Assembly: GCA_002731275.1 (NCBI GenBank)
Contig: PCBK01000016.1
Span: forward strand, 1 to 64,000
Origin: Deltaproteobacteria bacterium
Lineage (GTDB): Bacteria > Myxococcota_C > UBA6777
DNA length: 64,000 bases
Direction of reading: 5' to 3'
Shown here piece after piece: positions 27,133 through 46,489 of this stretch (position 1 is its first letter; the number at the start of each line of letters is the position of its first letter). Under the pieces are notes generated by a model. The model made no database searches and was not told where the DNA came from. It worked only from the letters and a program-made list of their open reading frames with translations. Position numbers and translations under genes: made by a program.

Positions 27133-28308
27133 TTAGCGCCTTCTACGTTTTGGGCGTTTTTTCTTTTTTCGGGGGGCTCTTTGAGGGATCTTGTAGCTTT
27201 TTCCTGTGGGGGGGAGTCTTTTGATGATTGGGGTGGAGCTTCCGCAGCGAATACTCAGGCGATGTGTTCCAGTGTAGGGGCCATCAGCACGACGGTAAGC
27301 CGCTCTCATTTTGTCTGCATACCACCACCATGAGCCTCCTTTGAGGATGCGTTTTTTATAACGGACGCGACGAGGTCGTTTGTAGACTTTGCGTACACGT
27401 GTGTAAGTCGTTTGGTAGCGGACGGTGCGTTTTTTCCCTTTTCGAAGGGTGATGCGTTTGCGCGTTTTTTTCCAGAACCACCGGACCTTTTTCTTTTCAA
27501 AGCAAAGTTTGGAAGGTTTGCCATCACAGGGGCCTTTTGGGTTGATGCGAGGGCAGTTTTTGTCGTTGGGGTCATCACAGCCTGCGTATGCGTGGGGATC
27601 GTAGAAGTCTTGCACCCATTCGTACCCATTGCCCGCCATGTCGTAGATTCCACGGAAGGGAGGGGAGATGCCAACGGGCCAGGTTTGGTCTTGGCCGTGT
27701 AAGAAGAGTTTCTTGGTGTTGGCTTTAGGGTTGGGGCAAAAGCGCATTTTTCTGTACGCGGGGTACGATGTGTGGGGCGGGAAGGCGCGGTAGTTGGCTT
27801 TGGTGCAATCGGGAGGCTGGTTGCCCCACGGGTATGTATCTCCTTTTGGACCGCGGGCAGCGGCTTCCCATTCTGCTTCTGTGAGCAGGCGTTTACCAGC
27901 CCACTTGCAATATTGGTGTGCCAGAAACCACGTCGCTCGGACAAAGGGACGCTTTGGGGAGCGAAATCGTTTCCAGAAGGAGCCACCGATGATCGCCCAG
28001 TACGCTGGAGGTTTGCAGTGGCCGGCTTTCATACATTGGATGTATTGTTCATTTGTGACTTCGTACTTGTCGACGTAGAAGGTGTTGAGTGTGACTGCGT
28101 GTCTTGGGGACTCCGCACGCATCTGCCACTTCTTGTGTTGGGCGTTTCGGTTGCTTCCGCGAATATACTGCCCTCCTGGAACACAGACCATGTCTTTGGG
28201 GGCGTCTTTGCTGCACGGTTTGAAGGTGCGTTTGTTGGCCTCACTTTTTGGTTGGATGCACACAAAAAGGGCGGCGAATATGAAAGCTTGGATCAGTCGT
28301 TGCTGCAC
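27133..28308 (-). CDS. Secreted FGE-sulfatase (SUMF1)-fold protein
   Basis: 391 residues from GTG with GGAG before it, and a signal peptide (LIQAFIFAALFVCIQPKSEA). The formylglycine-generating-enzyme fold is clear: CVPGGQYIRGS, FYVDKYEVTNEQYIQCM, RLLTEAEWEAAARG, TYPWGN, YDMAGNGYEWVQDFY, KGGSWWW and the end LSIRCGSS. Many bacterial proteins of this fold are not sulfatase activators. It has a basic insert (about 265-320) and a strongly basic C-terminal tail (RAPRKKKKRPKRRRR). Located divergently upstream of the nuo operon, whose promoter lies in the 242-base gap. Confidence 0.85.
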   Translation of the reverse strand: MQQRLIQAFIFAALFVCIQPKSEANKRTFKPCSKDAPKDMVCVPGGQYIRGSNRNAQHKKWQMRAESPRHAVTLNTFYVDKYEVTNEQYIQCMKAGHCKPPAYWAIIGGSFWKRFRSPKRPFVRATWFLAHQYCKWAGKRLLTEAEWEAAARGPKGDTYPWGNQPPDCTKANYRAFPPHTSYPAYRKMRFCPNPKANTKKLFLHGQDQTWPVGISPPFRGIYDMAGNGYEWVQDFYDPHAYAGCDDPNDKNCPRINPKGPCDGKPSKLCFEKKKVRWFWKKTRKRITLRKGKKRTVRYQTTYTRVRKVYKRPRRVRYKKRILKGGSWWWYADKMRAAYRRADGPYTGTHRLSIRCGSSTPIIKRLPPTGKSYKIPQRAPRKKKKRPKRRRR

Positions 28309-28457: not shown

Positions 28458-28550
28458 TGCCTATGAATTGGAGAAAAGTCATCGTTGCGTTTCATCCAGA
28501 GTGGACTCAGCTCTCGCTGAAACATCGGCATCCGTTTGTGTAGGTGGGAA

Positions 28551-28925
28551 ATGGTAGGTTTTGTACACCTTTTTGCTGTTTTTGTGATCATGTCCTTGGT
28601 CTTGTGGGGGGCGAGGGCCTTTGTGAAGTCGATGCGCGATACATCTGGAGAGCATGGACATACAAAAGAGATCTCTGAAGGGGAACGTGCTGGTGTGCTA
28701 CTTCCGTATACGCACACACAGTCCATCATGCCTGTGATCCTGGTCTTTGTGCTGTTATTTCTTGGTACAGTGTTGCTTTTCCCTTGGGCGCTTGCGCGTC
28801 GGGCTGGCTATGTGGCAGAATGGCTCGGAGGTGGGGCTTTGTTTGCGCTTGTTCTGATCGTGAGCTGGTTTTTTGCCATCGGTCACGGTTTGCTTCCTTG
28901 GAGTGGTCAGGGAAAGAAGGATTGA
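28551..28925 (+). CDS. nuoA: NuoA-like NADH-quinone oxidoreductase subunit A, divergent
   Basis: 124 residues, three membrane spans, first gene of the nuo operon; AGGTGGG precedes the ATG. NuoA lies at the junction of the membrane and peripheral arms of complex I. The span pattern and LLFPWALARRAGYV match the FxPWA region of NuoA, but the acidic FDVE motif (Asp79/Glu81 in E. coli) is missing: the corresponding stretch reads LLFLGTVLL with no acidic residue. The identification therefore rests on order, size and topology together with the PWA segment. Confidence 0.75.
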   Translation: MVGFVHLFAVFVIMSLVLWGARAFVKSMRDTSGEHGHTKEISEGERAGVLLPYTHTQSIMPVILVFVLLFLGTVLLFPWALARRAGYVAEWLGGGALFALVLIVSWFFAIGHGLLPWSGQGKKD

Positions 28926-28974: not shown

Positions 28975-29568
28975 ATGTCTCATGTAACCCTTCATCAACA
29001 ACCATTCATCCAATCATCTCTCAAACACCTCGTTGAGTGGGCGGAGCAACACGTTTGTTGGCCGATGCCTTACGAGACCGCCTGTTGTTCTCTAGAGCTG
29101 ATGGCGGCGACCAGCGGTAACTACGACCTCGCGCGTTTTGGTGCAGAGTTAACGCTTTACTCTCCCAAACAAGCTGATTTGCTTTTGGTGCTGGGGACGA
29201 TCACCTGCAAACAAGCACCATTTCTGCAACGTGTATATCACGAGATGCTCGACCCCAAGTGGGTGATCGCAGTGGGGGGGTGTGCTGCCTCTGGCGGGCC
29301 GTACAACAATTATCATACGGTTCAAGGTGTGGACGGCTTGATCCCTGTCGACTTGTACGTTCCTGGATGCCCTCCACGCCCAGAAGCCATTATGAACGCG
29401 ATCTTTACGCTCATGCGACAACATGAAGACAGCGATACACAAGAAGATCTCAAGTCGCGACGCTCTGCGTCACTCTTCTCTCTCAAACAAACGGAGTCCT
29501 TCCAGAATTTGGCAAAAGAGAGCGCCAAAAAACAAGCACATCGAAAACAAAAATATGACTTTTTCTGA
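28975..29568 (+). CDS. nuoB: NADH-quinone oxidoreductase subunit B
   Basis: 197 residues from ATG 28975, 7 bases after GGAG. All four ligands of the terminal N2 [4Fe-4S] cluster are present: the tandem Cys in ACCSLELM, VGGCAASGG and PGCPPRPEA. RFGAELTLYSPKQADLLLV and DPKWVIAVGGC are typical of the family. N2 hands electrons to quinone at the NuoB/NuoD interface. An extra charged C-terminal tail of about 35 residues follows the usual end. The gene starts 49 bases after nuoA. Confidence 0.95.
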   Translation: MSHVTLHQQPFIQSSLKHLVEWAEQHVCWPMPYETACCSLELMAATSGNYDLARFGAELTLYSPKQADLLLVLGTITCKQAPFLQRVYHEMLDPKWVIAVGGCAASGGPYNNYHTVQGVDGLIPVDLYVPGCPPRPEAIMNAIFTLMRQHEDSDTQEDLKSRRSASLFSLKQTESFQNLAKESAKKQAHRKQKYDFF

Positions 29569-29606: not shown

Positions 29607-31313
29607 ATGAGTCAGGCGGTTCTCGACGAACTGCAGCGTCGTTTTTTTCAACATATTATTGAGACTTCAAGCGATGATGCTGAGGTGGTGATTTGCATCC
29701 AACGTATCGGCTTACTACCTCTCATCAAATACTTGTGGAGTGATCTGGAGTTTCATATCCTCGTCGATATTTGCGGTTGTGATTATCCCCAAAGAGAGCA
29801 AAGGCTCGAAGTTGTGTATCAATTCAAGATGGGGGATGAGGCACAACGGACGGATATTCGTGGCCTTCGTGTGCGTATTCGCGTCCCTCTTTTTGAACAA
29901 GATGCGGTCGTGCCTTCTTTGATGTTTTTGTTTCGCAACGCAAATTGGTTGGAGCGAGAAGTCTGGGATATGTACGGTATCCGCTTTGATGGGCACCCTG
30001 ATCTCCGACGCCTTTTGACGCACTGGAAGTTTGAAGGCCACCCTCTGCGTAAACGCTACCCCAAACAAAAACGTCAGTACCTCGATGAACCTGCGCCAGT
30101 CTCCTTTTTTAATGTCCGTCCAAGGCAGCGAGAAGACGGGGCGATGACTGAGGTCGTCGATATTGGTCCTATGCACCCAATCACCCAAGGGCGGCTGCGT
30201 CTGCTGCTCGAATTTAATGGTGAGCATGTCGTCGGTGGGGACGTTGAAATTGGTTATTTGCACCGGGGTTTTGAGAAGGAAGTCGAAGACCTCTTTTGGG
30301 GGGGGGTGATCCCCTATTGTGAGCGGCTCAACTACCACTCTGCGCCTGTAAACGCCATCGGCTATGCGATGGCTTGTGAACAGCTCGCGGGGATCGAAGT
30401 GCCGGAACGCGCCGTATGGATGCGCATGTTTTTTAGTGAGCTTGCGCGTGTGATGGATCATGCGCTGTGTCTCGGCAACGCTTTGCACCAGATGGGTGCA
30501 TTGACCCACTTTTGGTTCTTCTTTCAAGTGCGCGAGCTGTGTACGCAACTCTTTGAGCAGTTTTCGGGACACCGAGTCACTGGTGCGATGGTTCGCATTG
30601 GTGGGTATGTGGCGGATGTTCCTTCTGACTTCGAGGAGAAGGCGCGTGGGTTGGTCGCAAAACTTCGACCTAAGCTCGATGAATTAGAGCGTTTGTTGGT
30701 CAATAACCGTATCTTTTTGGATCGTACAGTGGGGGTTGGGCGGCTGCCAAAAGAGGCTGCGATTGCTTATGGTATGAGTGGACCCATTGCCCGGGCATCT
30801 GGGGTCGCTTTCGATCTTCGAAAAGATCGAACCTACGCATTTTACGACCAGATCGACTTTGAGATGGTGGTCGCGAGCAACGGGGATGTCTACGATCGGA
30901 TGATGGTTCGCTTTTACGAGATCAGAGAATGTCTCGATATTCTCGAACAAACAATAGGATATATCGCTACAACACACGGACAACCTGTGCTCGCAGATGT
31001 GTACGGTGTGACGCTGCCAGACATTCATGAGACATACACACAAATCGATGCGATGATGCGGCACTTTCAGCTTGCAACAAAAGGAGAGCAGTTGCCAAAG
31101 GGGGAAGGATATACCTGCATCGAGAGCCCCAACGGAGAGCTCGGTTTTTATCTCGTCAGTGACGGATCGAGCAAACCACAACGATTGCACGTTCGCTCAC
31201 CAAGTCTCTGCGCACTTCAGGGATTGATTCCAATGTCAGTCGGCGGGACGCTCGCTGAAGTTGGTGTCTTATTGGGATCTCTCAACATCGTCCCTGGAGA
31301 GCTTGATCGTTAA
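29607..31313 (+). CDS. nuoCD: Fused NADH-quinone oxidoreductase subunits C and D
   Basis: 568 residues from ATG 29607 (GGAGAG precedes; a GTG at 29586 is in frame). Residues about 1-165 are NuoC (LEREVWDMYGIRFDGHPDLRRLL, EGHPLRKRYP), the rest NuoD (49-kDa subunit; IGYLHRGFEK, GIEVPERAVW, GMSGPIARASG). C-D fusions are known from E. coli. The quinone pocket is altered: the motif usually written HPxxHG reads HPITQG, placing Gln194 where the quinone-binding His (bovine His59) should be, and the DxGA motif reads HQMGA, placing Gln295 at the partner Asp. The pocket tyrosine in RLNYHS is kept. Confidence 0.93.
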   Translation: MSQAVLDELQRRFFQHIIETSSDDAEVVICIQRIGLLPLIKYLWSDLEFHILVDICGCDYPQREQRLEVVYQFKMGDEAQRTDIRGLRVRIRVPLFEQDAVVPSLMFLFRNANWLEREVWDMYGIRFDGHPDLRRLLTHWKFEGHPLRKRYPKQKRQYLDEPAPVSFFNVRPRQREDGAMTEVVDIGPMHPITQGRLRLLLEFNGEHVVGGDVEIGYLHRGFEKEVEDLFWGGVIPYCERLNYHSAPVNAIGYAMACEQLAGIEVPERAVWMRMFFSELARVMDHALCLGNALHQMGALTHFWFFFQVRELCTQLFEQFSGHRVTGAMVRIGGYVADVPSDFEEKARGLVAKLRPKLDELERLLVNNRIFLDRTVGVGRLPKEAAIAYGMSGPIARASGVAFDLRKDRTYAFYDQIDFEMVVASNGDVYDRMMVRFYEIRECLDILEQTIGYIATTHGQPVLADVYGVTLPDIHETYTQIDAMMRHFQLATKGEQLPKGEGYTCIESPNGELGFYLVSDGSSKPQRLHVRSPSLCALQGLIPMSVGGTLAEVGVLLGSLNIVPGELDR

Positions 31314-31350
31314 CTGTTCACCTTGAATCTTCGAACACAGGACCGTTTGG

Positions 31351-32904
31351 ATGTCAGAGAAGGCCGCCAAGATCACAATGACTATTGATGGTAGAGAAGT
31401 GAACGCGACGAGTGGCGCACGTTTGCTCGATGTCGCAGCATCTGTGGGGGTTGAGATTCCTCATTTTTGTTACCATCCACAGCTCTCAAACCCTGCAGAT
31501 TGTGGGATGTGCCGGGTGCATATTGAGGGCGAAAAAGACCTGCAAACGGCGTGTAATACGTTTGTTGAAGAGGGGATGAATGTCCAAACGCGATCCGATG
31601 AAGTGCTCGAAGCGCTCAAGGAGACGATGACGGAGAAGTTGACGGGGCACCCTCTTGACTGCCCTGTCTGTGATAAGGCCGGAGAGTGTGCATTGCAAAA
31701 CTACGCCGAGTCTCTTCAGTTGTCGGGACTCTCCATTCCAAAAATCCGACGCAATAAACCAAAATCAGTCATCGTCGGTCCGACGTTGGTGTTGGATGGA
31801 GAGCGCTGTATTCAGTGTTCGCGTTGTGTTCGCTTTTCCGAGGAGATCGCAGGCGACAAAGAGTTTGTGATGTTGCCTTGTGATGGGGAGCTTCAACTGA
31901 CCGTCAAGAAAGAGGTGACCCATCCATACTCGACGAATCTTGCGGATATATGTCCTGTGGGAGCGTTGACGCAGAGGGATTTTCGAACAAAGCGACGTGT
32001 CTGGAGTCACCAGCAGGTGCAATCTGTTTGTCCTGAATGTGCGCGAGGTTGCAATATCATCTTGGATTGTGCTGAGGGGGAGGTGCAGCGCATTCGACCG
32101 GGGCACAACGACGCTGTGAACCAATGTTGGATGTGTGACGCTGGGCGAGTTGCGTATCGTTCAATTGCCTCGTCCTATCGCTTAAAAATGCCCTTGGTGT
32201 CGTTGCGTGGCAAGCTGGAAGAGGTCAGCTGGCAAGAGGCGTTTGACTACGTCGCTGGTTTTCTCGAAGAGGGGCAAGACCGACTGGCCTCCCAACTCTC
32301 TGCGCTGGCAAGTAACGAGGACAACTACACGATGGCGGCGCTACTTTCTCACCTGCACGCTCCTGCACCTGCGTCTTTACCTCAAGGTCCAGATGGGTGG
32401 GAGGACGTTGAGGAGGAGTTGTTGCGTCGCAGTGATAGAACGCCCAATCGGATGGGGGCGGAGGTGTTTTCTGGAGCACGTCCTTTCGTGGAATGTCTCG
32501 ACGGTGCAAGTACTGCGCTGATTCTTCATGAGAATGTACTTCCAGAGCCTCGCATTCATCGTTCGTTGCGTCATGTTATCTATCTCGGGACACACATGAA
32601 CGCGACTGCGCGGGCTGCGACGATTGTGTTGCCTGTGACCTTGTGGGCGGAACAGACAGGTAGTTTTACCAACTTTGAGGGGCGTGTTCAGCGGTTCTTT
32701 CAGGGGGTCGAGCCTCCTTCAGGTGTGCTCCCTGCCTGGAAAGTGTTTGTCGAGTTGCTTCAGATGTTTGGAGGCAAGCGCGCCCAACGGGTGGATGCTG
32801 TGTTCAACATGATGTCGCGTGAAACGGAGTTTTTTCAGGGTGTGACGTTTGCTTCTTTGGGAGAGAAGGGTTGGCGAGCGTTCATGACAAACGAAGAAGA
32901 TTGA
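31351..32904 (+). CDS. nuoG: NADH-quinone oxidoreductase subunit G, short form
   Basis: 517 residues against 680-900 for typical NuoG. N-terminal [2Fe-2S] ligands (CYHPQLSNPADCGMC ... QTAC), the His-Cys3 cluster (HPLDCPVCDKAGEC) and a ferredoxin cluster (CIQCSRC ... DICPVGA) are intact, as is the Fe4S4 module CPECARGC...CWMCDAGR of the molybdopterin-type domain. The remaining molybdopterin-like domain is short: after about residue 300 only a segment like TAIVLPVTLWAEQTGSFTNFEGRVQRF remains. NuoG normally passes electrons from NuoE/NuoF towards NuoB, but neither of those genes is in this operon. Confidence 0.92.
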   Translation: MSEKAAKITMTIDGREVNATSGARLLDVAASVGVEIPHFCYHPQLSNPADCGMCRVHIEGEKDLQTACNTFVEEGMNVQTRSDEVLEALKETMTEKLTGHPLDCPVCDKAGECALQNYAESLQLSGLSIPKIRRNKPKSVIVGPTLVLDGERCIQCSRCVRFSEEIAGDKEFVMLPCDGELQLTVKKEVTHPYSTNLADICPVGALTQRDFRTKRRVWSHQQVQSVCPECARGCNIILDCAEGEVQRIRPGHNDAVNQCWMCDAGRVAYRSIASSYRLKMPLVSLRGKLEEVSWQEAFDYVAGFLEEGQDRLASQLSALASNEDNYTMAALLSHLHAPAPASLPQGPDGWEDVEEELLRRSDRTPNRMGAEVFSGARPFVECLDGASTALILHENVLPEPRIHRSLRHVIYLGTHMNATARAATIVLPVTLWAEQTGSFTNFEGRVQRFFQGVEPPSGVLPAWKVFVELLQMFGGKRAQRVDAVFNMMSRETEFFQGVTFASLGEKGWRAFMTNEED

Positions 32905-32914
32905 GGTCGGCATC

Positions 32915-34210
32915 ATGGGATGGAGTATCGTTCAGTTTTTAGTACCTTTTGGGGTGATGAGTGCCATCGTGTTGCTGGTGATGGCGCCTCTGTCTGCGTG
33001 GATGTCGCACAAATTACGTGCTATGGCGGAGGAGAGGATCGGCCCCAACCGTATACATGTGTGGGGGTTTCGTCTCTCTGGAGTATGGCATAGCCTCGCG
33101 GTGATGATCCGTGTTCTAATGCGACAGGAGAAAGAACCAGCCAACAGTGAACGGTATCTCTTTCGTGCAGCTCCTTACTTCTCTCTGATAGGGTCTGTAT
33201 TGGCGCTCTCTTTGATTCCTTTTGCCCACGGTGTAGAGGTTTCGAGTGGTCATTTATCTTTTCAGGTGGCCAACGTCCACGCGAGTGTGTTGTTTTTTCT
33301 CATGTTGAACGTGTGGGGGCTTTTTGGGATCATCTCCGCGGGATGGTCTTCCAACAAACAAGCTACATTGCAAAGCGCGATTGAGCGTGTGACACAGGTG
33401 TTTGTTTACCGCTTGGGGGTGGCGTTGTCGATGTTGGCGTTGTGCTTGGCGTATGGCACCGCGGATCTGAGCATGTCAGTCCATCAGCAGAGCCATCTTC
33501 CGTGGTTGTGGGGCGCGGCCATTTCGCCTTTTGGACTGTTGCTATGTGGTGGGTGTGTCTTGGCCGAGTTAAGGGGGAATCCTTTCGCAGATACAGACTC
33601 TCCTATCCGCACAGTGCCCCAATATCGCTCTGAGTACGTAGGGTGGAAGAGCGCGGTGTTTGGTTGGGGAGATACGCTTCACCTGTTCTCCTTTGCGGCT
33701 TTGATCACGACGATGTTTTTGGGAGGGTGGCAAGTCCCGGGTCTCTCAACACAGCAGCTTGAGCGACACAGCGCGACATTGCTCGCTGTCTTTCTGATCT
33801 TTCTCGGTGGATTGTTGTGTCTCTTGGGAGCGAGCGCGCTTCATCGAATGTTGCGGCCTGCTGTTGTTTTTGGTGATGCGCGCGATCGTGAGTCGAGGCG
33901 GTTGTTTCCTATCGCTTTGGGGGTGGGGCTTGTGTGCCTGTGGTGTGGGATCTGGTTGCTTGGATGGGGGTGGAGTGTCCGACCTTGGGGCCAAGTGACC
34001 ATTCGCTTTGCATTTCAGTTGATGGCGTTTGTGGGCAAAATGCTCTTTTGTGTGTTTATGTTTTTGTGGATTCGGCTGAGTTGGCCTGTATTCCGAAGCG
34101 CTAGGAGCATGCGTGTCGCGGTATTGTACGTCGTTCCTTTGGGGATCTTTAATCTCTTTTTGACCTTGGTATTCTCGTGGGGAGTCCGGTCGTTTGGTTT
34201 GTGGGAGTGA
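32915..34210 (+). CDS. nuoH: NADH-quinone oxidoreductase subunit H, divergent
   Basis: 431 residues, at least eight membrane spans. Family marks: ERIGPNR (about 40-46), SAGWSSN (141-147), FLGGWQVP. NuoH forms the quinone tunnel and the start of the proton path. The acidic third loop is altered: E. coli PFDQPEAEQEL aligns without gaps to PFADTDSPIRT (223-233), so Glu218 and Glu220 become Pro and Arg, and Asp213 becomes Ala. The SYE glutamate (Glu157) is Arg166. Glu240 (SEY) is retained. About 100 residues longer than E. coli NuoH. Confidence 0.85.
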   Translation: MGWSIVQFLVPFGVMSAIVLLVMAPLSAWMSHKLRAMAEERIGPNRIHVWGFRLSGVWHSLAVMIRVLMRQEKEPANSERYLFRAAPYFSLIGSVLALSLIPFAHGVEVSSGHLSFQVANVHASVLFFLMLNVWGLFGIISAGWSSNKQATLQSAIERVTQVFVYRLGVALSMLALCLAYGTADLSMSVHQQSHLPWLWGAAISPFGLLLCGGCVLAELRGNPFADTDSPIRTVPQYRSEYVGWKSAVFGWGDTLHLFSFAALITTMFLGGWQVPGLSTQQLERHSATLLAVFLIFLGGLLCLLGASALHRMLRPAVVFGDARDRESRRLFPIALGVGLVCLWCGIWLLGWGWSVRPWGQVTIRFAFQLMAFVGKMLFCVFMFLWIRLSWPVFRSARSMRVAVLYVVPLGIFNLFLTLVFSWGVRSFGLWE

Positions 34211-34214
34211 TGTC

Positions 34215-34808
34215 ATGATCTCTGTTGAGCGTGAGCGAGAAAAGAACGGCAAAAATCGCTGGTTTCTTCCTTTATTGTGGTCTCTTTGGATGATCTTGAA
34301 GCGGCTCTCTTCGAACATCTGGGCGGCTTTGTTTCACCGCATGGATATGGAGCAGAGGACTTGGCAATATCCGGAGGAGCCCAGACGATACGAGGAGCGG
34401 ACACGACTGGTTCACAGGCTCGTGAAGCGTCCTGATGGGCGTCCAAAGTGCGTAGCGTGTGAACTTTGTTCGACTGTTTGTCCGACACAGGCGATTGAGA
34501 TGGTGGTGGGTGACTCTGCAGAGCCCGACGTTGGAAAGTTTCCACAGAGCTTTGCGATCGACGAGTTGCGTTGTATGTACTGTGGATTTTGTGTCAATGT
34601 GTGTCCCAAAGACGCGCTACGCATGGACACGGAGCTTGGTGATCTGGTTGGGACCAAGCGCGAAGATCTTGTGTTTGACTTGGAGTCTTTGCTCTCCATG
34701 CCACCTCGTCCTGGCGCTTCTTTGATCGACAAGGAGCTTGAGGCGGGGCGGCGTGATCCGGAGCAATCTTTTCTTGAGGTGACCCAACGTGAGCAGCTGT
34801 TGCCATAA
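34215..34808 (+). CDS. nuoI: NADH-quinone oxidoreductase subunit I
   Basis: 197 residues from ATG 34215, right after the nuoH stop with GGGAG upstream. Two complete ferredoxin motifs bind clusters N6a and N6b: CVACELCSTVCP and CMYCGFCVNVCP. It links NuoG to NuoB in the peripheral arm. The N-terminal amphipathic segment that rests on the membrane is present (WFLPLLWSLWMILKRL). The C-terminal part after about 145 is charged and longer than usual. Confidence 0.95.
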   Translation: MISVEREREKNGKNRWFLPLLWSLWMILKRLSSNIWAALFHRMDMEQRTWQYPEEPRRYEERTRLVHRLVKRPDGRPKCVACELCSTVCPTQAIEMVVGDSAEPDVGKFPQSFAIDELRCMYCGFCVNVCPKDALRMDTELGDLVGTKREDLVFDLESLLSMPPRPGASLIDKELEAGRRDPEQSFLEVTQREQLLP

Positions 34809-34826: not shown

Positions 34827-35393
34827 ATGAGCTTACTCGTAATTCTTACGTTGGTGGTGGGAGGTTTGACACTGGCTTCTGCGGTCATCGTCATTTTGTC
34901 GAAAAATCCTCTCTTCGCCATCGTGTATTTGTTTTTGACTTGTATGGGGGTCGCGTGTGAATTGCTGCTCTTGGGGGCTTTTTCGCTTGGTGTGTTGCAC
35001 TGGGCAGTGTCGGCTGTGAGTTTGATGGCGTTGTTCATGTTTTTGGCGATGATCTCGAAAAAGCGGAAAGATATACATCATTTAAAGACCTCGGTTCCTG
35101 TCGTGGTGCTGTCGGTCATGTTGGGGTGTGTTTTTTTGGCATCGAGTGTGAGTGGTCTTGGTGGCATGAGTGATCCTGTCGCGACGTTCTCTGTTGAAAC
35201 CATGTCGACAACTCCGAAAGGACATCAGCACATAAGGCAGAGTAAAGCGGGCTCGTTGTACCAGATGGGCACCGCGTTGACGGGACGGCACTTATTAACA
35301 TTTGAGCTGCTAGGTGTTCTGTTGTTGTTATCGTGTGTGGCGTTGGTCGTTTTTTTGCGAGGTGGAGATCGTTCTTCGAGGGGAGGTCTTTGA
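34827..35393 (+). CDS. nuoJ: NADH-quinone oxidoreductase subunit J
   Basis: 188 residues, five predicted spans. AIVYLFLTCMGVACELLLLGA and VLHWAVSAVSLMALFMFLAMI follow the NuoJ pattern of spans 2 and 3, though the usual Tyr-Val-Gly region of span 3 is changed to AVSAVSLMALF. GAGGAAG precedes the ATG. nuoK begins one base after the stop. Confidence 0.85.
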   Translation: MSLLVILTLVVGGLTLASAVIVILSKNPLFAIVYLFLTCMGVACELLLLGAFSLGVLHWAVSAVSLMALFMFLAMISKKRKDIHHLKTSVPVVVLSVMLGCVFLASSVSGLGGMSDPVATFSVETMSTTPKGHQHIRQSKAGSLYQMGTALTGRHLLTFELLGVLLLLSCVALVVFLRGGDRSSRGGL

Positions 35394-35394
35394 G

Positions 35395-35709
35395 ATGCGA
35401 GCGTTGAGTATTTGTATCACTTTGAGTGTGTTGTTGTTTACGGTTGGCTGTATTGGTGTATTACTGCGTAAAAAGTTACTGATGATGGTGATGTCCGTCC
35501 AGGTGATGCTCTTGGGGGTGGTGTTGGCGTTGGTGACGTTTTCGAGGGTACATGGGTTGCAAAATGGTCTTGCGATGGATGGTCAGGTGATGGCCTTGGG
35601 GGTGATCCTCTGGGGGGGCATGCAGGTTGTGTTGGGGGTCGGATTGTTGCAGTCGTTCTATCGGTCAAATCGTCAATCTGAGGAAGTCGATTCTTTGGGT
35701 GAACTTTAG
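35395..35709 (+). CDS. nuoK: NADH-quinone oxidoreductase subunit K with both key Glu replaced by Gln
   Basis: 104 residues, three spans, usual length. Layout matches NuoK closely: GVLLRKKLLMMVMSVQVMLL (residues 21-40) against the family's GLLTRRNL...GIELMLNA, and GQVMALGVILWGGMQ against GQVFAL...AAAEA. Both buried carboxylates essential in E. coli (Glu36 and Glu72) are Gln here: Gln36 (codon CAG at 35500) and Gln77 (CAG at 35623). GGGGAGG precedes the ATG. Confidence 0.9.
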   Translation: MRALSICITLSVLLFTVGCIGVLLRKKLLMMVMSVQVMLLGVVLALVTFSRVHGLQNGLAMDGQVMALGVILWGGMQVVLGVGLLQSFYRSNRQSEEVDSLGEL

Positions 35710-35732: not shown

Positions 35733-37736
35733 ATGTTGCGGTATATTTTGTTGTTTCCCCTGTTGGGTACATTGCTTAACGGATGTCTGCCTCTCTTTGG
35801 TGTACGGCTCAAGCGACAGCATAGTGTGTTTATCGCCTGTTTGGCGTCCGTATGTACAGCGTTATGGAGTCTTCGTCTTTTGGTGACGTTGGCCTACTTA
35901 CCGGCAGGTCACCAGGTGATAGAGGATGTGCTGTACAACTGGATGCAAGTTGGGAGTGTGCGGATTCAGTTTTCTCTGTATGCAGACGTGTTGGGTGTGG
36001 GGGCTGCTGTTTTGTTGAGCCTTGTTGCCCTTCTGATCCATGTATACTCAGTGGGATACATGGCTCGTGATGAGGGATACGCGCGGTATTTTGCTTTGCT
36101 CAACGCGTTGTTGTTTTCGATGATGATGGTGCTCTTTGCTGGTAATGTCCTTGTGGGTATGTTTGGTTGGATGTGGGTGGGGTTGTGCATCGTCTTGTTG
36201 ATGAGCTTTTGGTACGTGGATGTTGAGCGTGTCAAGGTTGGGAGCAAAGCCCTCGCGTTGTTTCGCTTGGGGGATGTCGCGCTGTTGTTTGCGTTGGTGT
36301 TGTTGTATTGGAATGTCCACACATTGGACTGGTCTGTATTACGCCGTGTGGGAGATTCATCCTTATTGCCTGGTCTGTTAGCGCCGTGGTTGTGGGGGAT
36401 GTCGAAGATGGACTGGATCGGTGTATGTCTGGCGATTGGGGTGTTGTGTCGAACAGCACAGTTGCCATTTTACATGTGGCTGCCGGACTCTACTGCAGGA
36501 CCGGCGCCAGCGGTTGCCTGGATTCATAGTGCGATTTTGCCGTTGCTCGGCGTTTTTTGGTTGGCGCGTTTTCACTTCCTCTTGAAGTTTTCATCTGTCG
36601 CGTCTGGTCTATTGATCGTGTTTGGAGCGTTGACGTCGTTGTTGGTGATGGCCATCGCGATTTTTCAGTACGATGTGAAGCATACTTTGGCCTACATCGC
36701 GATGAGTCAGGTAGGGCTCATGGTCGTCGGGATTGGTGTGGGAGTTCCGGATGCTGTGATTTTCCATGTGTTTTCATTTGTCTGTTACATGACCGCGCTC
36801 TCATTGGCGGGAGGGGCCGTCTTGATGGGGATGCACTACGTGCAGGATATTCGGGTGATGGGAGGGCTCGTTCATTCGATGCCCTGGACCCATTGGGGCT
36901 TTTTGCTTGCGGTGTTTGCGGGCATTGGATTTCCGGGGTTTTCGGGTTTTTTTAGTGGCCATTCGTTGCTTTGGCGCTCGTTAGAGCGCGGTTATACGGC
37001 GGTTTGGTTGGTGGGGGCGATGACGATGGTGCTGCACGCTTTTTGTCTGGTGCGATTGTTGTGTTTGATCTTTTACGACACATTGCGCGGAGGGGAGCAG
37101 TTGCGGTGGCATTTGCCCGAAGGCCAGCCAAAAGAAGTCCCTTGGACGATGCGCATTCCGATGTACGTGTTACTGCTCGCGTCGTTGGTTGTTGGGGCGA
37201 TGCACGTGCCGACATTTTTTGGTGGAAAGGCCTTACTCGGTCATTGGTTACACGGTGGATTTATTGGGACAAAGGTCACGACAGAGACGATCTTGACGAG
37301 AGAGTTTTCGACGGGTGTGGTGTTTGTCGGTGTGTTCGTCGGTGCGTTGTTGGCGTTGTTAACTTTTGGACAGGGCGCAGTACAGGCATTGCGTAACGAA
37401 GCTCTTCTGCAAGTGAATGGTCGGGGCGGTGCTGCTGGGGTGTTCTTTCGCTGGGCGCAGCGTCGTTTTTACATCGATGTGTTTTTAGAGCTCGTGACTG
37501 TGAAGTTGTTGTTGCAGGTGGTTCGTTTTGTCCTCGCGCCTATCGAAAAGTACGTTATAGAAGGTGCTTTACGTTTGCTATCTGCGACGATCTTGGGCGT
37601 GGGAGTGATGTTTGGGCTTGAAAAGCGTGAACCTCCAGGAAGAGCCATCTCCATCGCTGTTTTTGTGTTGGTGTTGTGTTTGTTGTGGTGGATGCTTTCA
37701 AACGCGATGATCGTGGAAGGCATGGGAGGGGTTTGA
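35733..37736 (+). CDS. nuoL: NADH-quinone oxidoreductase subunit L, key charged residues lost
   Basis: 667 residues with the antiporter-like core and the long C-terminal lateral helix. Family marks: HVYSVGYM, SFWYVDVE, WLPDSTAGPAPAVAWIHSA, SQVGLM. Residues needed for proton translocation in E. coli are replaced: Glu144 by Met147 (FGWMWVG), Lys229 by Arg240 (CRTAQLP), Lys342 by Thr354 (YMTALSL), and Lys399/Asp400 by Gly409/His410 (GFFSGHSL). Asp181 (RLGD) is retained. Its stop overlaps the nuoM start (TGATG). Confidence 0.93.
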   Translation: MLRYILLFPLLGTLLNGCLPLFGVRLKRQHSVFIACLASVCTALWSLRLLVTLAYLPAGHQVIEDVLYNWMQVGSVRIQFSLYADVLGVGAAVLLSLVALLIHVYSVGYMARDEGYARYFALLNALLFSMMMVLFAGNVLVGMFGWMWVGLCIVLLMSFWYVDVERVKVGSKALALFRLGDVALLFALVLLYWNVHTLDWSVLRRVGDSSLLPGLLAPWLWGMSKMDWIGVCLAIGVLCRTAQLPFYMWLPDSTAGPAPAVAWIHSAILPLLGVFWLARFHFLLKFSSVASGLLIVFGALTSLLVMAIAIFQYDVKHTLAYIAMSQVGLMVVGIGVGVPDAVIFHVFSFVCYMTALSLAGGAVLMGMHYVQDIRVMGGLVHSMPWTHWGFLLAVFAGIGFPGFSGFFSGHSLLWRSLERGYTAVWLVGAMTMVLHAFCLVRLLCLIFYDTLRGGEQLRWHLPEGQPKEVPWTMRIPMYVLLLASLVVGAMHVPTFFGGKALLGHWLHGGFIGTKVTTETILTREFSTGVVFVGVFVGALLALLTFGQGAVQALRNEALLQVNGRGGAAGVFFRWAQRRFYIDVFLELVTVKLLLQVVRFVLAPIEKYVIEGALRLLSATILGVGVMFGLEKREPPGRAISIAVFVLVLCLLWWMLSNAMIVEGMGGV

Positions 37737-39253
37737 TGAACGGATTTTGGTTGTTTGCGTTGGTTTTGATCCCTTTTCTCGGTGCGTTGTGTATCTTGTG
37801 GGTGCCTTCTCGTTATCGAGCGTATGTGCCAGCCATCGGTTTTGTCGTGGGTATGCTCAATGTACTCGTGGTGGCTTGGTGTTGGTCACAGTTTGACGCG
37901 ACCTCACCTGTCGATCAGTTCCAGCTGAAGTTACGTTGGTTGCCGATTCTCCACGTCTCGTTTCGATTGGCTCTGGACGGTATCAACATCCTGTTTGTGT
38001 TGTTGGTTTCATTACTCGTGCCGTTTACGAGTTTGTTGTGTATCTCGATGGATGACGAGCGTCTGAAGAGTCGGACAATTGCATTGTTAATGGTCCAGGT
38101 GGGGGCGTATGGTTTCTTTCTGTCGAGGGATCTTTTTTTGCTCTTTGTGTCGTGGGAGTTGATGACATTCTCGACACTGTTCCTCAACGGGAGTTGGGGA
38201 CGTCAATCGTTTGAATCGAACAGGCGTTTTGCGATCTCTTCTGCGGTTGGTTCTGTTTTCTTGGGAATGTGTGTTTTTTATATGGGATTTCGGCATGAGA
38301 CATTTCATATCTCGGAGCTTGTGGGCAGCTTCTCGGTGTTTGAACAGAAGCTCTGTTTTGTGTTGATGGTGTTTGCGTTTGTGCGGAAAGCGGGTTTATT
38401 TCCTTTTCACGCTTGGTTCCCCCACATTGTCCCACACGCGCCGGTCTCTGGTGCGGTGTTGATTATGGGGATCTTGATCCCGTCGGGTGTGTATGCGGTC
38501 TTGCGAGTGATGTTGCCTCTTGCGCCGGCGGCGTTTGCTGAGTGGGGACATATCTTGATGTTCTTCGTCGCATTTGGTGGTGTGTACGCGTCTTTGTTGT
38601 CCTTGGTGCAGATTCACATATCTCGGAGACTTTCCTATATCTATATGAGCTATATGTCCTTTTCGATGCTCGGTGCGTTAAGTTTACGCGTCGAAGCAGT
38701 GCAAGGGGCGTTGGTGTTTGTGCTTTTTCAGTGCATTGCAGCGTCGGGGCTTTTGTTTCTCTTCGCGATTTTGCGCAAACACTTTGCGACGTCTCGTCTC
38801 GCTGAGCTTGGTGGTGTCGCGAAGCGTGTACCGTCCTTGACGACGTACTTTGTCTTGTTTGTCTTGTCGCTGATTTGCCTACCTGGATTGGCAGGCTTTT
38901 CGGGGGAGTTTCTTTTGCTCTTGGGACTCCTCTCATACCACCCTGTCTTTGCGATTGCGTTTGGTTTATCCTCTATTTTTGGTGTGTTGTCGTTGTGGGA
39001 GTTGGTGAGGCAGGTTTTCTTCGGCGCAGCGCAAGGCAAGCAAACGGAGGAAATCCAGGACATTTCGCGTGTACAAAGTGGTTGGTTGGTTGTGTTTTTG
39101 TGTCTTCTTTTGTGGGGAGGGTGGTCTCCTCACTCGTTTACTCATCGTACATCTGTCTCGGTATCAGCGTTGGTGATCAAGCTCCAGCAGGCGGTCAAGG
39201 CACATCGTGTCATGAGAACAAGACAACGTGTTGAGCAAAACGAACGACGTTAA
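37736..39253 (+). CDS. nuoM: NADH-quinone oxidoreductase subunit M
   Basis: 505 residues, antiporter-like subunit. Start is the ATG overlapping the nuoL stop by one base. In contrast with NuoL the central pump residues remain: Glu141 (FVSWELMTF), Lys218 (AFVRKAGLFPFHAW) and the GEF glutamate (AGFSGEFLLLLG). One change: the TMH8 lysine of ILLKTGAYG is Pro249 (ILIPSGVYA). Confidence 0.93.
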   Translation: MNGFWLFALVLIPFLGALCILWVPSRYRAYVPAIGFVVGMLNVLVVAWCWSQFDATSPVDQFQLKLRWLPILHVSFRLALDGINILFVLLVSLLVPFTSLLCISMDDERLKSRTIALLMVQVGAYGFFLSRDLFLLFVSWELMTFSTLFLNGSWGRQSFESNRRFAISSAVGSVFLGMCVFYMGFRHETFHISELVGSFSVFEQKLCFVLMVFAFVRKAGLFPFHAWFPHIVPHAPVSGAVLIMGILIPSGVYAVLRVMLPLAPAAFAEWGHILMFFVAFGGVYASLLSLVQIHISRRLSYIYMSYMSFSMLGALSLRVEAVQGALVFVLFQCIAASGLLFLFAILRKHFATSRLAELGGVAKRVPSLTTYFVLFVLSLICLPGLAGFSGEFLLLLGLLSYHPVFAIAFGLSSIFGVLSLWELVRQVFFGAAQGKQTEEIQDISRVQSGWLVVFLCLLLWGGWSPHSFTHRTSVSVSALVIKLQQAVKAHRVMRTRQRVEQNERR

Positions 39254-39264
39254 CGGAGGATGGT

Positions 39265-40803
39265 ATGAAGAGAGTGCTGTTAGAGTCGATGTTTGCGACC
39301 CGTCTGCTTGAGACCTCATGGATGTCTTTTGGGCCGGAGCTATGTCTTTTTATCGCGGCGTTGGGATTGTTGCTGTTGTCCGTGACCAAACAGGGGCGAA
39401 ATTGGGAGAGAGTGCTTGTGATGTTGGGGGTGTTCGCCTCTGCGGTGTTTGTGGTGTTTATCCCGAAAGGTGGTTATCCAGATCCGCAAAGCGCGAGTTA
39501 CCTTGCGATAGACATGTACTCTCGATTCTTTCACATACTCTTCCTCATGAGTGGATCTTTGGCGATGGCGCTGTTGACGCGGCGGTTGAAAGGGCGCGGA
39601 GATATCTTCTACGCCTTGGTTTTGTTGTCGACCTGTGGGTTGATGGTGATGGTCTCTGCACGGGATCTTTGGCTTATGGTGTTGGGTATGGAGCTTGCGA
39701 CGCTGTCGTTGTGTGTCCTTGTTGGGTACCTTGTGCCTTCTCGGAGGTTGCTACGTGTCAGTGTCTATCTGTTTTTGTACAACACTGTGGGGAGTGTCAT
39801 TTTGCTATTTGGGATCGTCTTTCTTTACGGTGCGATAGGGCACTTACACTACGACCAGATGGCTTTGAGTCTCGGCAACCAATTGGCGAATAAACCCTTT
39901 TTGGCGGTTGGTTCGATCTTTCTTGTGGTGGGTTTTGGCATGAAGATGGCCGTTGTTCCCTTTCACTCGTGGATGTCTGATGCGATTGAATTGACATGGA
40001 CACCACTCACCAATCTCCTCGATGTCACGATGAAGCTCTCTGTCCTTGCGGTCTTCCTTCGGTGGTTTATCGTTTCCATCGATGCAGCGAATGCTTCGTG
40101 GCTAGGAGCGCTGATTGGAGGCTTCTCTATCCTCGCGATGTTGTTTGGCAGTTTTTCTGCTGTGACACAGCGCTGTGTGAAAAAAGTTTTGTACTATGCG
40201 GCCCTCGCTCATACAGGGTTTTTCTTGCTCGCGATCATCTCTCGCCAGGAGCTTGGTGTACAGGCTGTTTTGGTGTATGCGCTTGTGTATGTCTTGATGT
40301 ACTACGGTGCATATACGGTCCTGTCGATCTTTGAAGAGAAGGTTGGGCAGTCCTTTCCTATCGAACATTTTGCGGGTTTTGCGCGCCGCTATCCAGGGCT
40401 GGCGTTTTGTATGTTGATCTTCTTGTGTTCGATGTCTGGTGTCCCGCCTACAGCCGGGTTTATGTGTCGCTGGCTAAGCCTCGGGAGTGTGATGAAGCTA
40501 CGCTCTGAGTGGGGATTCCTGCTCCTCTTGTCCGGGGGATTGGCCTCCATCTTGTTGAGCTATGCCTTTTTGAGAGTGCTCTACACCATGTATGTTGTTC
40601 CTGCGTCAGATAAAGCGGTGTTTACTAAGCAACCTTATCCTCTCGAACAACGCATCGCCTCTACACTTGCCGTATGTCTGCTCTTGATCGGTCTCTTTCC
40701 CCACGGGCTTTTGTACATCTCCAGCCAACACCAGTTACGACCCAACTTACAAAACCAGGTTCAACGCACCACCAAATCACCTGCGCTTGCCTCGCGAGAC
40801 TAA
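39265..40803 (+). CDS. nuoN: NADH-quinone oxidoreductase subunit N
   Basis: 512 residues, last gene of the operon; GGAGG precedes the ATG. Core residues are kept: Glu143 (GMELATLSL), Lys227 (GMKMAVVPFHSW) and Lys257 (DVTMKLSV). In PPTAGF(F)GK the lysine is Arg (PPTAGFMCRW). A palindrome follows 54 bases after the stop. Confidence 0.93.
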   Translation: MKRVLLESMFATRLLETSWMSFGPELCLFIAALGLLLLSVTKQGRNWERVLVMLGVFASAVFVVFIPKGGYPDPQSASYLAIDMYSRFFHILFLMSGSLAMALLTRRLKGRGDIFYALVLLSTCGLMVMVSARDLWLMVLGMELATLSLCVLVGYLVPSRRLLRVSVYLFLYNTVGSVILLFGIVFLYGAIGHLHYDQMALSLGNQLANKPFLAVGSIFLVVGFGMKMAVVPFHSWMSDAIELTWTPLTNLLDVTMKLSVLAVFLRWFIVSIDAANASWLGALIGGFSILAMLFGSFSAVTQRCVKKVLYYAALAHTGFFLLAIISRQELGVQAVLVYALVYVLMYYGAYTVLSIFEEKVGQSFPIEHFAGFARRYPGLAFCMLIFLCSMSGVPPTAGFMCRWLSLGSVMKLRSEWGFLLLLSGGLASILLSYAFLRVLYTMYVVPASDKAVFTKQPYPLEQRIASTLAVCLLLIGLFPHGLLYISSQHQLRPNLQNQVQRTTKSPALASRD

Positions 40804-44032: not shown

Positions 44033-46489
44033 ATGAGGCGAGAAAGAGAACAGAAACGATTATCGAACAAGCACCTGAATTGGAGGTTTGGTATTGCTTT
44101 GTGCCTTTGTTTTGTGTTCGGGCTCTCGCTGTTTTCTGCGTGTGCTTCTGGCCTTAACCAGACAGAGCCCAATGCCAAAGAGGCTGAGTCTCGCGAAACT
44201 GAGCCTGTGACGACCTTTGCAGAGGGTGGTGGGCGCGATGGCAGTGTACAAGAGGAGCCAGATCCTGCAGAAAATTCGAATACAGGTCGAAATCCGACAC
44301 TTCCTACGAGCGATGTCGTGGCGTATAAATGCCCAGCTGGACAAGAGTCTTTCCAAACAAAGCCTTGTCAGCAGGGGGACAAGTCATGTGATAGTGGTTG
44401 TGTTCCCTCACAACTCGCGACCAAGAGTGGACGGAACGATAGCAGTGTTGACTGCAAAGACGATGCGGTCCTTTGTGTGGGAGATGAGCCTTCAGCGGAG
44501 GTGAAAACGATCCGAGAGGCTGCGGTGCTCGCAGAAAAAGATCAAAACATCACCAGAGTGTTCATCTTTGCTGGGACTTACAAGGAGAGTGTGACCTTCC
44601 GAAACCTTCGACAAGACTTGAGTATTGAAGGTGTCTCCAATGACAGCACAACAGGCACACGGATCATCGCACCACCATTGAAGAATACTGCACTTCCATT
44701 GTACGCAACACTACGTTTTATAAACGTAAAAAAAGTGAAACTCTCCTTTGTTCACCTTTCGGGGGCTGGGCATGGTGTGTTTGCTGCTAGAGGTATATCT
44801 ATTCATCTTTCTCATTTATTTTCAACAGGGAATGTGAGAACAGGTGCTACTTTGGTGAATATAGGAGAGGCTGTTGTTGAAAACTGTCAATTCTCGGACA
44901 ATGGTAACTTTGTTGCTGTTAACATCAATAACCAACATTACCCTGTTGTTGAGAATCAAATCGCAGTGAATATCAACAACCAACACAAAGGTTCCGGACA
45001 AATCGCAGTGAATATCAACAACCAACATCGACCTTATGATGAGAGTCGGTTTGGTCTTGTTATTGAGGGAAGTCGCGAAGTTTTTGTTGATAAAAACCTT
45101 TTTGCGAAAAATTATAATGGAGGATTGGCTGTTTTTGGTCCTGGGCAAGTTGCAGTGAACATTAACAACCAACACAAAGGCACCGGACAAATTGCGGTGA
45201 ATATAAACAACCAACATCGAGTTATCGCAGGTAGTCAAATCGCCGTAAATATCAACAATCAACACAAGGTTGTCGGAAAAGGTAACCGCTTCGCGAATAA
45301 CGGACCTGTCTCTTTTCACCGTGGAAGACTCTCGACTGGCCAGTGTGGTCAGTGTTCACCTGGATCGTATTGTCAGGGAACAACGTGTCAACCCAAGCTC
45401 TCAGTTGCTCACGAGCAGCTCAGTGGTGCAAAGGCGATTATGGGGGTTGGAGCTGTGATCGCTGGAATGGGTGATGTGCAGCTCACTGGCAACAGCTTCT
45501 TCCGTAATGACGCGACTGGTTTGATTGTCCACTCTATCAAAGATCTCACTCTCTCCAACAATGCCATCTCCAGAAATGGTGTGCGTCCAGAGTCTACACT
45601 TCCAAATTTGCTGGCATTTGCGCTTCCCGCAATCCATCTTTGGAATATCCATGGGAAGGTCGATGTCAACAAAAACCTGATCGCAGAAAACGTCTCTGTC
45701 GGACTTCAAGTCTCGAACTTTGATCACAAAGGGATGCCAGCGATGCTCAAAATCAACGCCAATGCCAACCATATCACCGGAAATGGCGTGTTCTTGAGCA
45801 AAAATGAGTCCGTCGGAGATGGAATCAAGCTCATGACAGAGCTGAAAGGCAGCAACTCCATCGAGATGAATGTCTACGGAAATGTCTTTATGAAGAACCG
45901 ACGTTCGGGCTTTGCAAGCCACGGTGCGATTCGTGGTTCGTTGGAAGGGAACTTGTTTAGAAGTCATCCAGGCCGCGCGCTCGCGCTTCATGATACCGGA
46001 TTCCAGAAGGACAACACGATCAAGATCCTCAAAAATACCATCCAGGAAGCTTTTGGGTACGGTATCCAAATCTACGGTGGGACTGAGGCGCAAAACAGTG
46101 ACGCAAAGATCGAGTTGAGTGGCAACCGTATCGACTCTGTGAAGTCCTTAAAGACCATGGACAGTTCCAAAGAGATGCCCGAAGCTGACGGAGTGAGTTT
46201 GGTCAACTTGAGCATCGCCAATATCACCATCAAGGAGAATTTATTCGCAGAGATGGGGCGGGCTGCCGTGTTTATGCACTCCTCCAAGGCCACCGCCGAA
46301 GGGAACCAAATCGATAGCTGCACGTACGGATTTATCTTGCAGCACAATGCTTCTTTGACCCGAGATAGTGATGTCCACAACAAGGACAGTATGAGCACTC
46401 CGTCCAATGAGTCCGATGTTCGTAGTCCAAGCAGCACGGGAGGGATGCGCTACAACAACGAAAACTGGACCTGCCAAAAAGATTGGTAG
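44033..46489 (+). CDS. Beta-helix lipoprotein with six AVNINNQH repeats
   Basis: 818 residues. Lipoprotein signal with lipobox FSAC (about residues 23-39), then an acidic disordered linker. Cys-rich segment CPAGQESFQTKPC...DSGC, followed by a start typical of right-handed beta-helix proteins (TIREAAVLAEKDQNITRVFIFAGTYKESVTF). Many NosD/PbH-type rungs (LTGNSFFRNDATGLIV, LSNNAISRNG, LEGNLFRSH) run to the end. Residues about 293-411 hold six copies of (Q)xAVNINNQH. A Cys motif (CGQCSPGSYCQGTTCQ) follows. Probably a surface-exposed outer-membrane lipoprotein. It is 18 bases after the kinase gene and likely cotranscribed. Confidence 0.8.
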   Translation: MRREREQKRLSNKHLNWRFGIALCLCFVFGLSLFSACASGLNQTEPNAKEAESRETEPVTTFAEGGGRDGSVQEEPDPAENSNTGRNPTLPTSDVVAYKCPAGQESFQTKPCQQGDKSCDSGCVPSQLATKSGRNDSSVDCKDDAVLCVGDEPSAEVKTIREAAVLAEKDQNITRVFIFAGTYKESVTFRNLRQDLSIEGVSNDSTTGTRIIAPPLKNTALPLYATLRFINVKKVKLSFVHLSGAGHGVFAARGISIHLSHLFSTGNVRTGATLVNIGEAVVENCQFSDNGNFVAVNINNQHYPVVENQIAVNINNQHKGSGQIAVNINNQHRPYDESRFGLVIEGSREVFVDKNLFAKNYNGGLAVFGPGQVAVNINNQHKGTGQIAVNINNQHRVIAGSQIAVNINNQHKVVGKGNRFANNGPVSFHRGRLSTGQCGQCSPGSYCQGTTCQPKLSVAHEQLSGAKAIMGVGAVIAGMGDVQLTGNSFFRNDATGLIVHSIKDLTLSNNAISRNGVRPESTLPNLLAFALPAIHLWNIHGKVDVNKNLIAENVSVGLQVSNFDHKGMPAMLKINANANHITGNGVFLSKNESVGDGIKLMTELKGSNSIEMNVYGNVFMKNRRSGFASHGAIRGSLEGNLFRSHPGRALALHDTGFQKDNTIKILKNTIQEAFGYGIQIYGGTEAQNSDAKIELSGNRIDSVKSLKTMDSSKEMPEADGVSLVNLSIANITIKENLFAEMGRAAVFMHSSKATAEGNQIDSCTYGFILQHNASLTRDSDVHNKDSMSTPSNESDVRSPSSTGGMRYNNENWTCQKDW
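44910..45266 (+). repeat. Six dispersed AVNINNQH-coding repeats
   Basis: Units of about 27-30 bases (CAAATCGCAGTGAATATCAA type) encode AVNINNQH. The spacing in protein is 12-16 residues, except a 37-residue gap of ordinary beta-helix sequence between units 3 and 4. Units 2-3 and 4-5 form a duplicated pair (KG(S/T)G between). Differences between units are mostly at third codon positions. Confidence 0.85.

Follow-up and report, generated by a model that had tools for sequence, protein, structure and literature searches.

The energy-converting-hydrogenase-related (Ehr) complexes, derived from group 4 hydrogenases, are NuoD-family complexes that have stayed in the membrane after losing their signature active-site residues.

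In respiratory complex I, the link between quinone reduction and pumping is still disputed. Coupling models take the His-Asp ion pair of the quinone pocket as the first link between quinone protonation and NuoH plus the E-channel (PMC8119997, PMC7434922): quinone is protonated by a Tyr and a His, the His-Asp pair breaks, loops of NuoH move, and the E-channel passes the change on to NuoN, NuoM, and NuoL (PMC7434922, PMC8119997, PMC9271201). Single His-to-Arg and Asp-to-Asn mutants are partly active, and the Tyr can act as proton donor (PMC12890310). Single mutants in the membrane arm of the Paracoccus enzyme lose rate with coupling staying full, being slow and not uncoupled (PMC9802314). In addition, variants that do not use NADH have been described: the Campylobacter complex I, which takes its electrons from flavodoxin instead of NADH and has replacement genes for nuoE and nuoF (PMC4178425), and 11-subunit enzymes such as that of Desulfitobacterium, which lack the NADH module and conserve the quinone-channelling and pumping features (PMC11238625). 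A respiratory operon kept without conserved functional residues is also on record, in the form of the "deranged" bc1 complexes of Acetobacteraceae (PMC10715153).

The window analysed here (the whole stretch of 64,000 nucleotides) lies on contig C21 of genome G000, a 10.75 Mb assembly of 200 contigs, 94.65% complete and with an estimated contamination of 5.5%. It carries a nuo operon for subunits A-D and G-N, arranged as in the orthologous operons of G001 and G002, two genomes of the same phylum in which the set is complete (A-B-CD-E-F-G-H-I-J-K-L-M-N); only E and F are missing. The features of the region are as follows.

Gene for an FGE-sulfatase-domain protein, 27133..28308, minus strand: divergent from nuoA, a conserved context outside the complex.
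nuoA, 28551..28925, plus strand: inferred start at ATG 28551 (ORF opens at 28536); Pfam Oxidored_q4 match below the cut-off (E = 8.6e-4); E. coli D79 changed to F (28758-28760) and E81 to G (28764-28766), ECG loop motif lost.
nuoB, 28975..29568, plus strand: likely start at ATG 28975 (ORF opens at 28873); the four N2-cluster Cys all present; E. coli R87, an Arg in G001, G002, and nearly all compared operons, changed to L (29155-29157).
nuoCD, fused, 29607..31313, plus strand: NCBIfam NuoD match with E = 1.7e-121; the gene of the original prediction.
Gap of 37 bp between nuoCD and nuoG, 31314..31350, plus strand: the site of nuoE/nuoF in G001 and G002.
nuoG, 31351..32904, plus strand: short, 517 aa against 593-595 in relatives; invariant Fe-S Cys all retained.
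nuoH, 32915..34210, plus strand: 14 of 22 invariant titratable residues lost; ERK to SHK, SYE to VYR (E157R, 33410-33412), PFD to PFA (33587-33589); in E. coli numbering E36S, R37H, D63V, E157R, D213A, E218P, and E220R.
nuoI, 34215..34808, plus strand: inferred start at ATG 34215 (ORF opens at 34194); both CxxCxxCxxxCP motifs intact.
nuoJ, 34827..35393, plus strand: TM3 motif VYAGA changed to VSAVS (Y59S, G61V).
nuoK, 35395..35709, plus strand: E36 to Q (35500-35502) and E72 to Q (35623-35625).
nuoL, 35733..37736, plus strand: E144M, K229R, H338F, K342M, K399G, and D400H.
nuoM, 37736..39253, plus strand: ATG 37736 overlaps the nuoL stop (ORF opens at 37676); E144, K234, and E407 retained; K265P, H322Y, and H348Q changed.
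nuoN, 39265..40803, plus strand: E133, K217, and K247 retained; K395 changed to R.

Alignment of NuoCD to the sequences of solved complex I structures and to the E. coli K-12 protein (from NC_000913.3) placed Gln194, in the motif HPITQG (codon CAA, 30186-30188, plus strand), at the position of E. coli His224 and T. thermophilus His38, and Gln295, in HQMGA (codon CAG, 30489-30491, plus strand), at that of E. coli Asp325 and T. thermophilus Asp139. The pocket Tyr was retained as Tyr243 (codon TAC, 30333-30335, plus strand), equivalent to E. coli Tyr273 and T. thermophilus Tyr87. Misalignment as the cause of the Gln/Gln reading was ruled out by MAFFT and by the stretch from Gln194 to Gln295, which aligned without a single gap to both the E. 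coli and the Aquifex NuoCD. Thus, the original prediction of a Gln pair in HPITQG and HQMGA, with the Tyr of RLNYHS kept, holds on proper alignment, which recovered no canonical His/Asp. Its description of the second motif as DxGA had the position right, although the residue found there in nature is either D or E, with Glu being common.

Only 3 of the 26 invariant titratable residues of NuoCD were altered, two of them E/D exchanges and the third the quinone His. Among the features of respiratory complex I (NDH-1), NuoD/49 kDa, NuoB with its N2 cysteines, and the pocket Tyr were present, and a pocket His paired with Asp or Glu was missing. A group 4 [NiFe] hydrogenase was ruled out by the absence of CxxC from NuoCD, as two CxxC bind NiFe in the large subunit of those enzymes. 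Like the Ehr complexes, the window complex would be a NuoD-family complex retained in the membrane despite losing signature active-site residues, but it derives from a true NuoCD; descent of the Ehr type was discarded, as the protein matched NuoCD/NuoD models best and was nearest to the NuoCD of G001.

The Gln/Gln combination was not found elsewhere in the genomes surveyed. In all other aligned NuoD loci (29 places in diverse genomes), the first position was occupied by His and the second by Asp or Glu. Of 386 diverse genomes, 135 matched the canonical HPxxHG...HRG DNA pattern; extrapolated roughly, this would correspond to some 30,000 of 84,980. A scan of these 84,980 species genomes for HPxxQG, which may omit records from the genome of the window itself, returned 97 stretches, ten of them NuoD-like, and in none of the ten was there a Gln at the second position within an intact DxGA, nor was membership of a complete complex I shown for any. 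For the second position, a pattern allowing Gln or Glu was applied to 290 genomes and matched 14, of which the window alone had Gln; the other 13 (ten read out, three known from an earlier alignment) all had Glu. These two scans rule out a frequent natural variant. No complex I of this kind turned up in a search of open-licence papers.

Five other HPxxQG loci were examined as possible cases of the same kind and rejected. Locus L195, on a Deltaproteobacteria contig, had NuoC/NuoD-like genes and no membrane-arm genes on that contig, and the contig of L197 (Thermoanaerobaculia) was too short to judge its setting. L196 (4896-11923 of the locus; record PCUW01000050.1, Bdellovibrionales) presented a nuoB-CD-E-F-G-I cluster without a membrane arm, whose NuoD pocket reads Gln/Phe/Asp; this cluster is preceded by a gene for a 538-aa protein without Pfam match and has 2-oxoacid dehydrogenase E2/E3-type genes nearby. 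Finally, L198 (8470-10434) and L199 (8718-10692), both from Candidatus Nanopelagicales, were solitary NuoD paralogues with EFHPSAQGG or DFHPIAQGG and the pocket Tyr replaced by Trp, in genomes carrying another NuoD; these marine actinobacterial paralogues did not align at the second position, and they adjoin a gene for a PF02636 NDUFAF7-type methyltransferase. A PF02636 methyltransferase gene also follows the nuoB-CD-F-G-I genes of locus L039 (8333-13931 of the locus; contig C17 of G046), where the pocket is canonical (His/Tyr/Asp), the 20 kb read contained no membrane-arm gene, and a further NuoD locus exists elsewhere in the genome.

To score the losses over the whole complex, subunits were aligned with those of up to 16 comparison operons, and each operon was scored in turn on the columns invariant in the others (leave-one-out). 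The window broke 43 of 114 invariant D/E/K/R/H columns, against 0 to 5 for each comparison operon, and 104 of 301 other invariant columns, against 2 to 34. None of its 22 invariant Cys was broken, and the Fe-S relay was complete, with every invariant cysteine of NuoB, NuoG, and NuoI in place. Summed by arm from the per-subunit rows, the losses came to 6 of 44 invariant titratable residues for the peripheral subunits (B, CD, G, I) and to 37 of 70 for those of the membrane arm (A, H, J, K, L, M, N). The E-channel acids of NuoH, NuoA, and NuoK were replaced in comparison with E. coli, and the antiporter Glu/Lys pairs and central Lys were retained in NuoN, partly retained in NuoM, and lost in NuoL. 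Of the 10 invariant titratable residues in NuoN, 3 were lost, and at least two of these, if not all, were like-for-like exchanges (E to D, R to K, K to R).

The double loss in the pocket had been taken originally as a sign of coordinated change agreeing with alterations in the membrane arm, and both points are borne out, the 43 losses extending across the complex and 37 of them falling in that arm. The sequences support a coordinated change affecting the pocket that is far bigger than had been stated. The earlier description missed the loss of nuoE/nuoF and the fact that this NuoCD is the only NuoD of the genome.

Neutral decay does not account for these losses. All reading frames of the operon were open, and the number of hydrophobic segments was about that of relatives. 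When the membrane-arm genes were subjected to random substitution until residue differences reached the observed 38% (50 runs, indels ignored, hence a lenient simulation), neutral drift produced a mean of 50 stops and a minimum of 37 in 2536 codons, against none in the actual genes, which rules it out. The branches of the Nuo subunits were 2 to 12 times longer in the window than in G001, but those of COX1 were equal (0.31 and 0.32, respectively), which confines the acceleration to complex I and rules out a generally fast-evolving lineage. With one genome of this genus in the collection, maintained selection is argued from the open frames and the retained motifs rather than from dN/dS, and we read the pattern as altered constraint on a complex that would still be under selection.

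The phylum of the window is represented in the collection by five genomes of one family. The NuoCD proteins of G001 and G002 are 50-52% identical to that of the window and keep His, Tyr, and Asp. G001 provided the nearest sequence in every subunit tree, and the FGE-sulfatase-domain gene lies divergent beside nuoA in G002 as in G000; the operon is thus most simply read as vertically inherited. No NuoD match, and no complex I, was found in the same-family genome G003 (86% complete). In another member of the family, G004, locus L038 (contig C765) is an 11-subunit-type cluster in which E, F, and G were not found; it shows about 33% identity in NuoD and has the canonical His/Tyr/Asp.

Within G000, the NuoD of the window was the single 49-kDa homologue, and a second, canonical complex I was not found, in an assembly that may lack about 5% of the genome. 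The genome also encodes a MenG/UbiE-family methyltransferase, haem-copper oxidases, and an Nqr-type cluster with NqrB-, NqrD/E-, and NqrF-like genes plus apbE (contig C81, locus L193). The only NuoF-like (51K) gene belongs to a formate-dehydrogenase-like cluster on contig C35 (locus L194), where it specifies a fused NuoE/F-like subunit; this cluster also has split NuoG-like and molybdopterin subunits. Two POR-family proteins, homologues of the pyruvate- and 2-oxoglutarate-type ferredoxin oxidoreductases, are encoded as well.

Compared with the 14-subunit complex I of E. coli K-12, G001, and G002, the operon shares homologous A-D and G-N genes in the same order, the Fe-S ligands of NuoB, NuoG, and NuoI, and the pocket Tyr; it differs in lacking NuoE/NuoF, in the change from His-Asp to Gln-Gln, and in the loss of coupling residues from NuoH, NuoA, NuoJ, NuoK, and NuoL. 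Judged by its genes, the predicted complex is a complex I derivative by descent that fails several defining features, namely the NADH module, the His-Asp pair, and the E-channel acids. It resembles the EF-less enzymes of Desulfitobacterium (PMC11238625) and Campylobacter (PMC4178425) in having no NADH module and, probably, a ferredoxin or flavodoxin as donor. However, it keeps NuoG, unlike the 11-subunit type, and has lost the quinone-channelling and pumping features that those enzymes conserve (PMC11238625), and where Campylobacter has replacement genes it has just the 37-bp gap (PMC4178425). In the deranged bc1 complexes, the cofactor ligands were lost, whereas here they were kept and the proton-coupling residues were lost (PMC10715153).

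Given this anatomy, our tentative reading, to which we would give somewhat less than an even chance, is a maintained EF-less derivative of complex I that may wire electrons to quinone without canonical coupling. In the absence of NuoE and NuoF, electrons would have to come in at NuoG, from reduced ferredoxin or flavodoxin, the genome having the POR-family homologues named above; the nuo operon itself has no electron-donor gene. From NuoG they would pass to N2 and on to quinone, whose protons would come from Tyr243 or water. Such transfer could survive the Gln/Gln pocket, since single mutants of the His and the Asp are partly active and the Tyr is able to donate (PMC12890310), which, together with the kept Tyr, fits the earlier suggestion that quinone is protonated by another route. 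Without the His-Asp switch and the E-channel, quinone reduction would be untied from canonical proton pumping. The subunits with surviving ion pairs, NuoN and part of NuoM, would perhaps be retained for folding or as a residual path, and NADH oxidation could be handled by the Nqr-type cluster. Because the first switch, the NuoH acids, the NuoA/NuoJ/NuoK relay, and the NuoL end were replaced jointly and the Fe-S wire was kept, an uncoupled electron wire seems the likeliest working. With greater reserve, we regard it as possible that this is a natural, selectively maintained, non-pumping complex I, that is, an electron-only ferredoxin:quinone oxidoreductase evolved from a coupled enzyme by replacing residues that coupling models deem essential. 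The Glu/Lys pairs kept in NuoM and NuoN would be unneeded by a wholly non-pumping complex, which leaves room for residual pumping.

The main rival of the electron-wire reading is a poorly active vestige, as the Paracoccus membrane-arm mutants were slow yet strictly coupled, so that losing pump residues may give a dead enzyme and not an uncoupled active one (PMC9802314). Such a complex, en route to loss, would assemble and be catalytically poor, kept temporarily as a scaffold or by chance once the Nqr-type enzyme was relied on. We consider this rather unlikely: accelerated evolution in all Nuo subunits, a barely recognisable NuoA, a shortened NuoG, the Nqr-type cluster as a candidate alternative NADH:quinone enzyme, the same-family G003 without detected complex I, and the precedent of the deranged bc1 complexes (PMC10715153) are consistent with it, but zero stops against about 50 expected under neutrality and 22 of 22 invariant Cys argue for maintenance, and G001 has an Nqr/Rnf-type gene beside a complex I that is nevertheless canonical. 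Somewhat less probable still is a remodelled but coupled enzyme in which NuoN and NuoM go on pumping, at lower stoichiometry, and the drive comes by a conformational route bypassing the His-Asp pair and the E-channel glutamates. The residues retained in NuoN (E133, K217, K247) and NuoM (E144, K234, E407), the mild losses of NuoN, and the E. coli E407K mutant, which pumps with reduced stoichiometry (PMC9271201), would suit it; nonetheless, the known connection between the quinone site and NuoN (both Glu of NuoK, both acids of NuoA, the motif of NuoJ, and the acid cluster of NuoH) was jointly lost.

The remaining explanations appear weaker. A pocket for an electron acceptor other than quinone, or a complex acting as a redox sensor, would explain why the pocket His and Asp were both lost together with the NuoH ERK residues, but we hold it improbable, as the pocket Tyr was conserved along with most of NuoD and NuoB, the few titratable changes of NuoCD include two E/D swaps, and the operon has no acceptor gene. 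The use of a different quinone, also put forward in the original prediction, would agree with the altered pocket residues; it is very improbable, given that family members retain the canonical pair and that residues were lost as far from the head group as NuoK and NuoL. Finally, the 200 contigs and the estimated contamination could point to an artefact of assembly, contamination, or alignment, which we regard as almost certainly not the case: G001 was nearest in every subunit tree, the FGE-sulfatase neighbour is common with G002, and 43 changes at conserved sites within open frames are not base errors.

If the electron-wire reading is true, the evolved complex would separate the parts needed for coupling alone from those needed for electron transfer, and would amount to a natural test of the coupling mechanism (a double E-to-Q change in NuoK, His/Asp-to-Gln in the pocket), for which the canonical relatives, with NuoCD about 50-52% identical, serve as comparison. 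If it is instead a vestige, the operon would record in what sequence complex I is taken apart, with the NADH input and the coupling residues going first and the Fe-S ligands last.

Outside the nuo operon, the window also encodes a right-handed beta-helix protein (44033-46489), in which in-frame repeats encode IAVNINNQH, the DNA copies being 60-88% alike to the reference.
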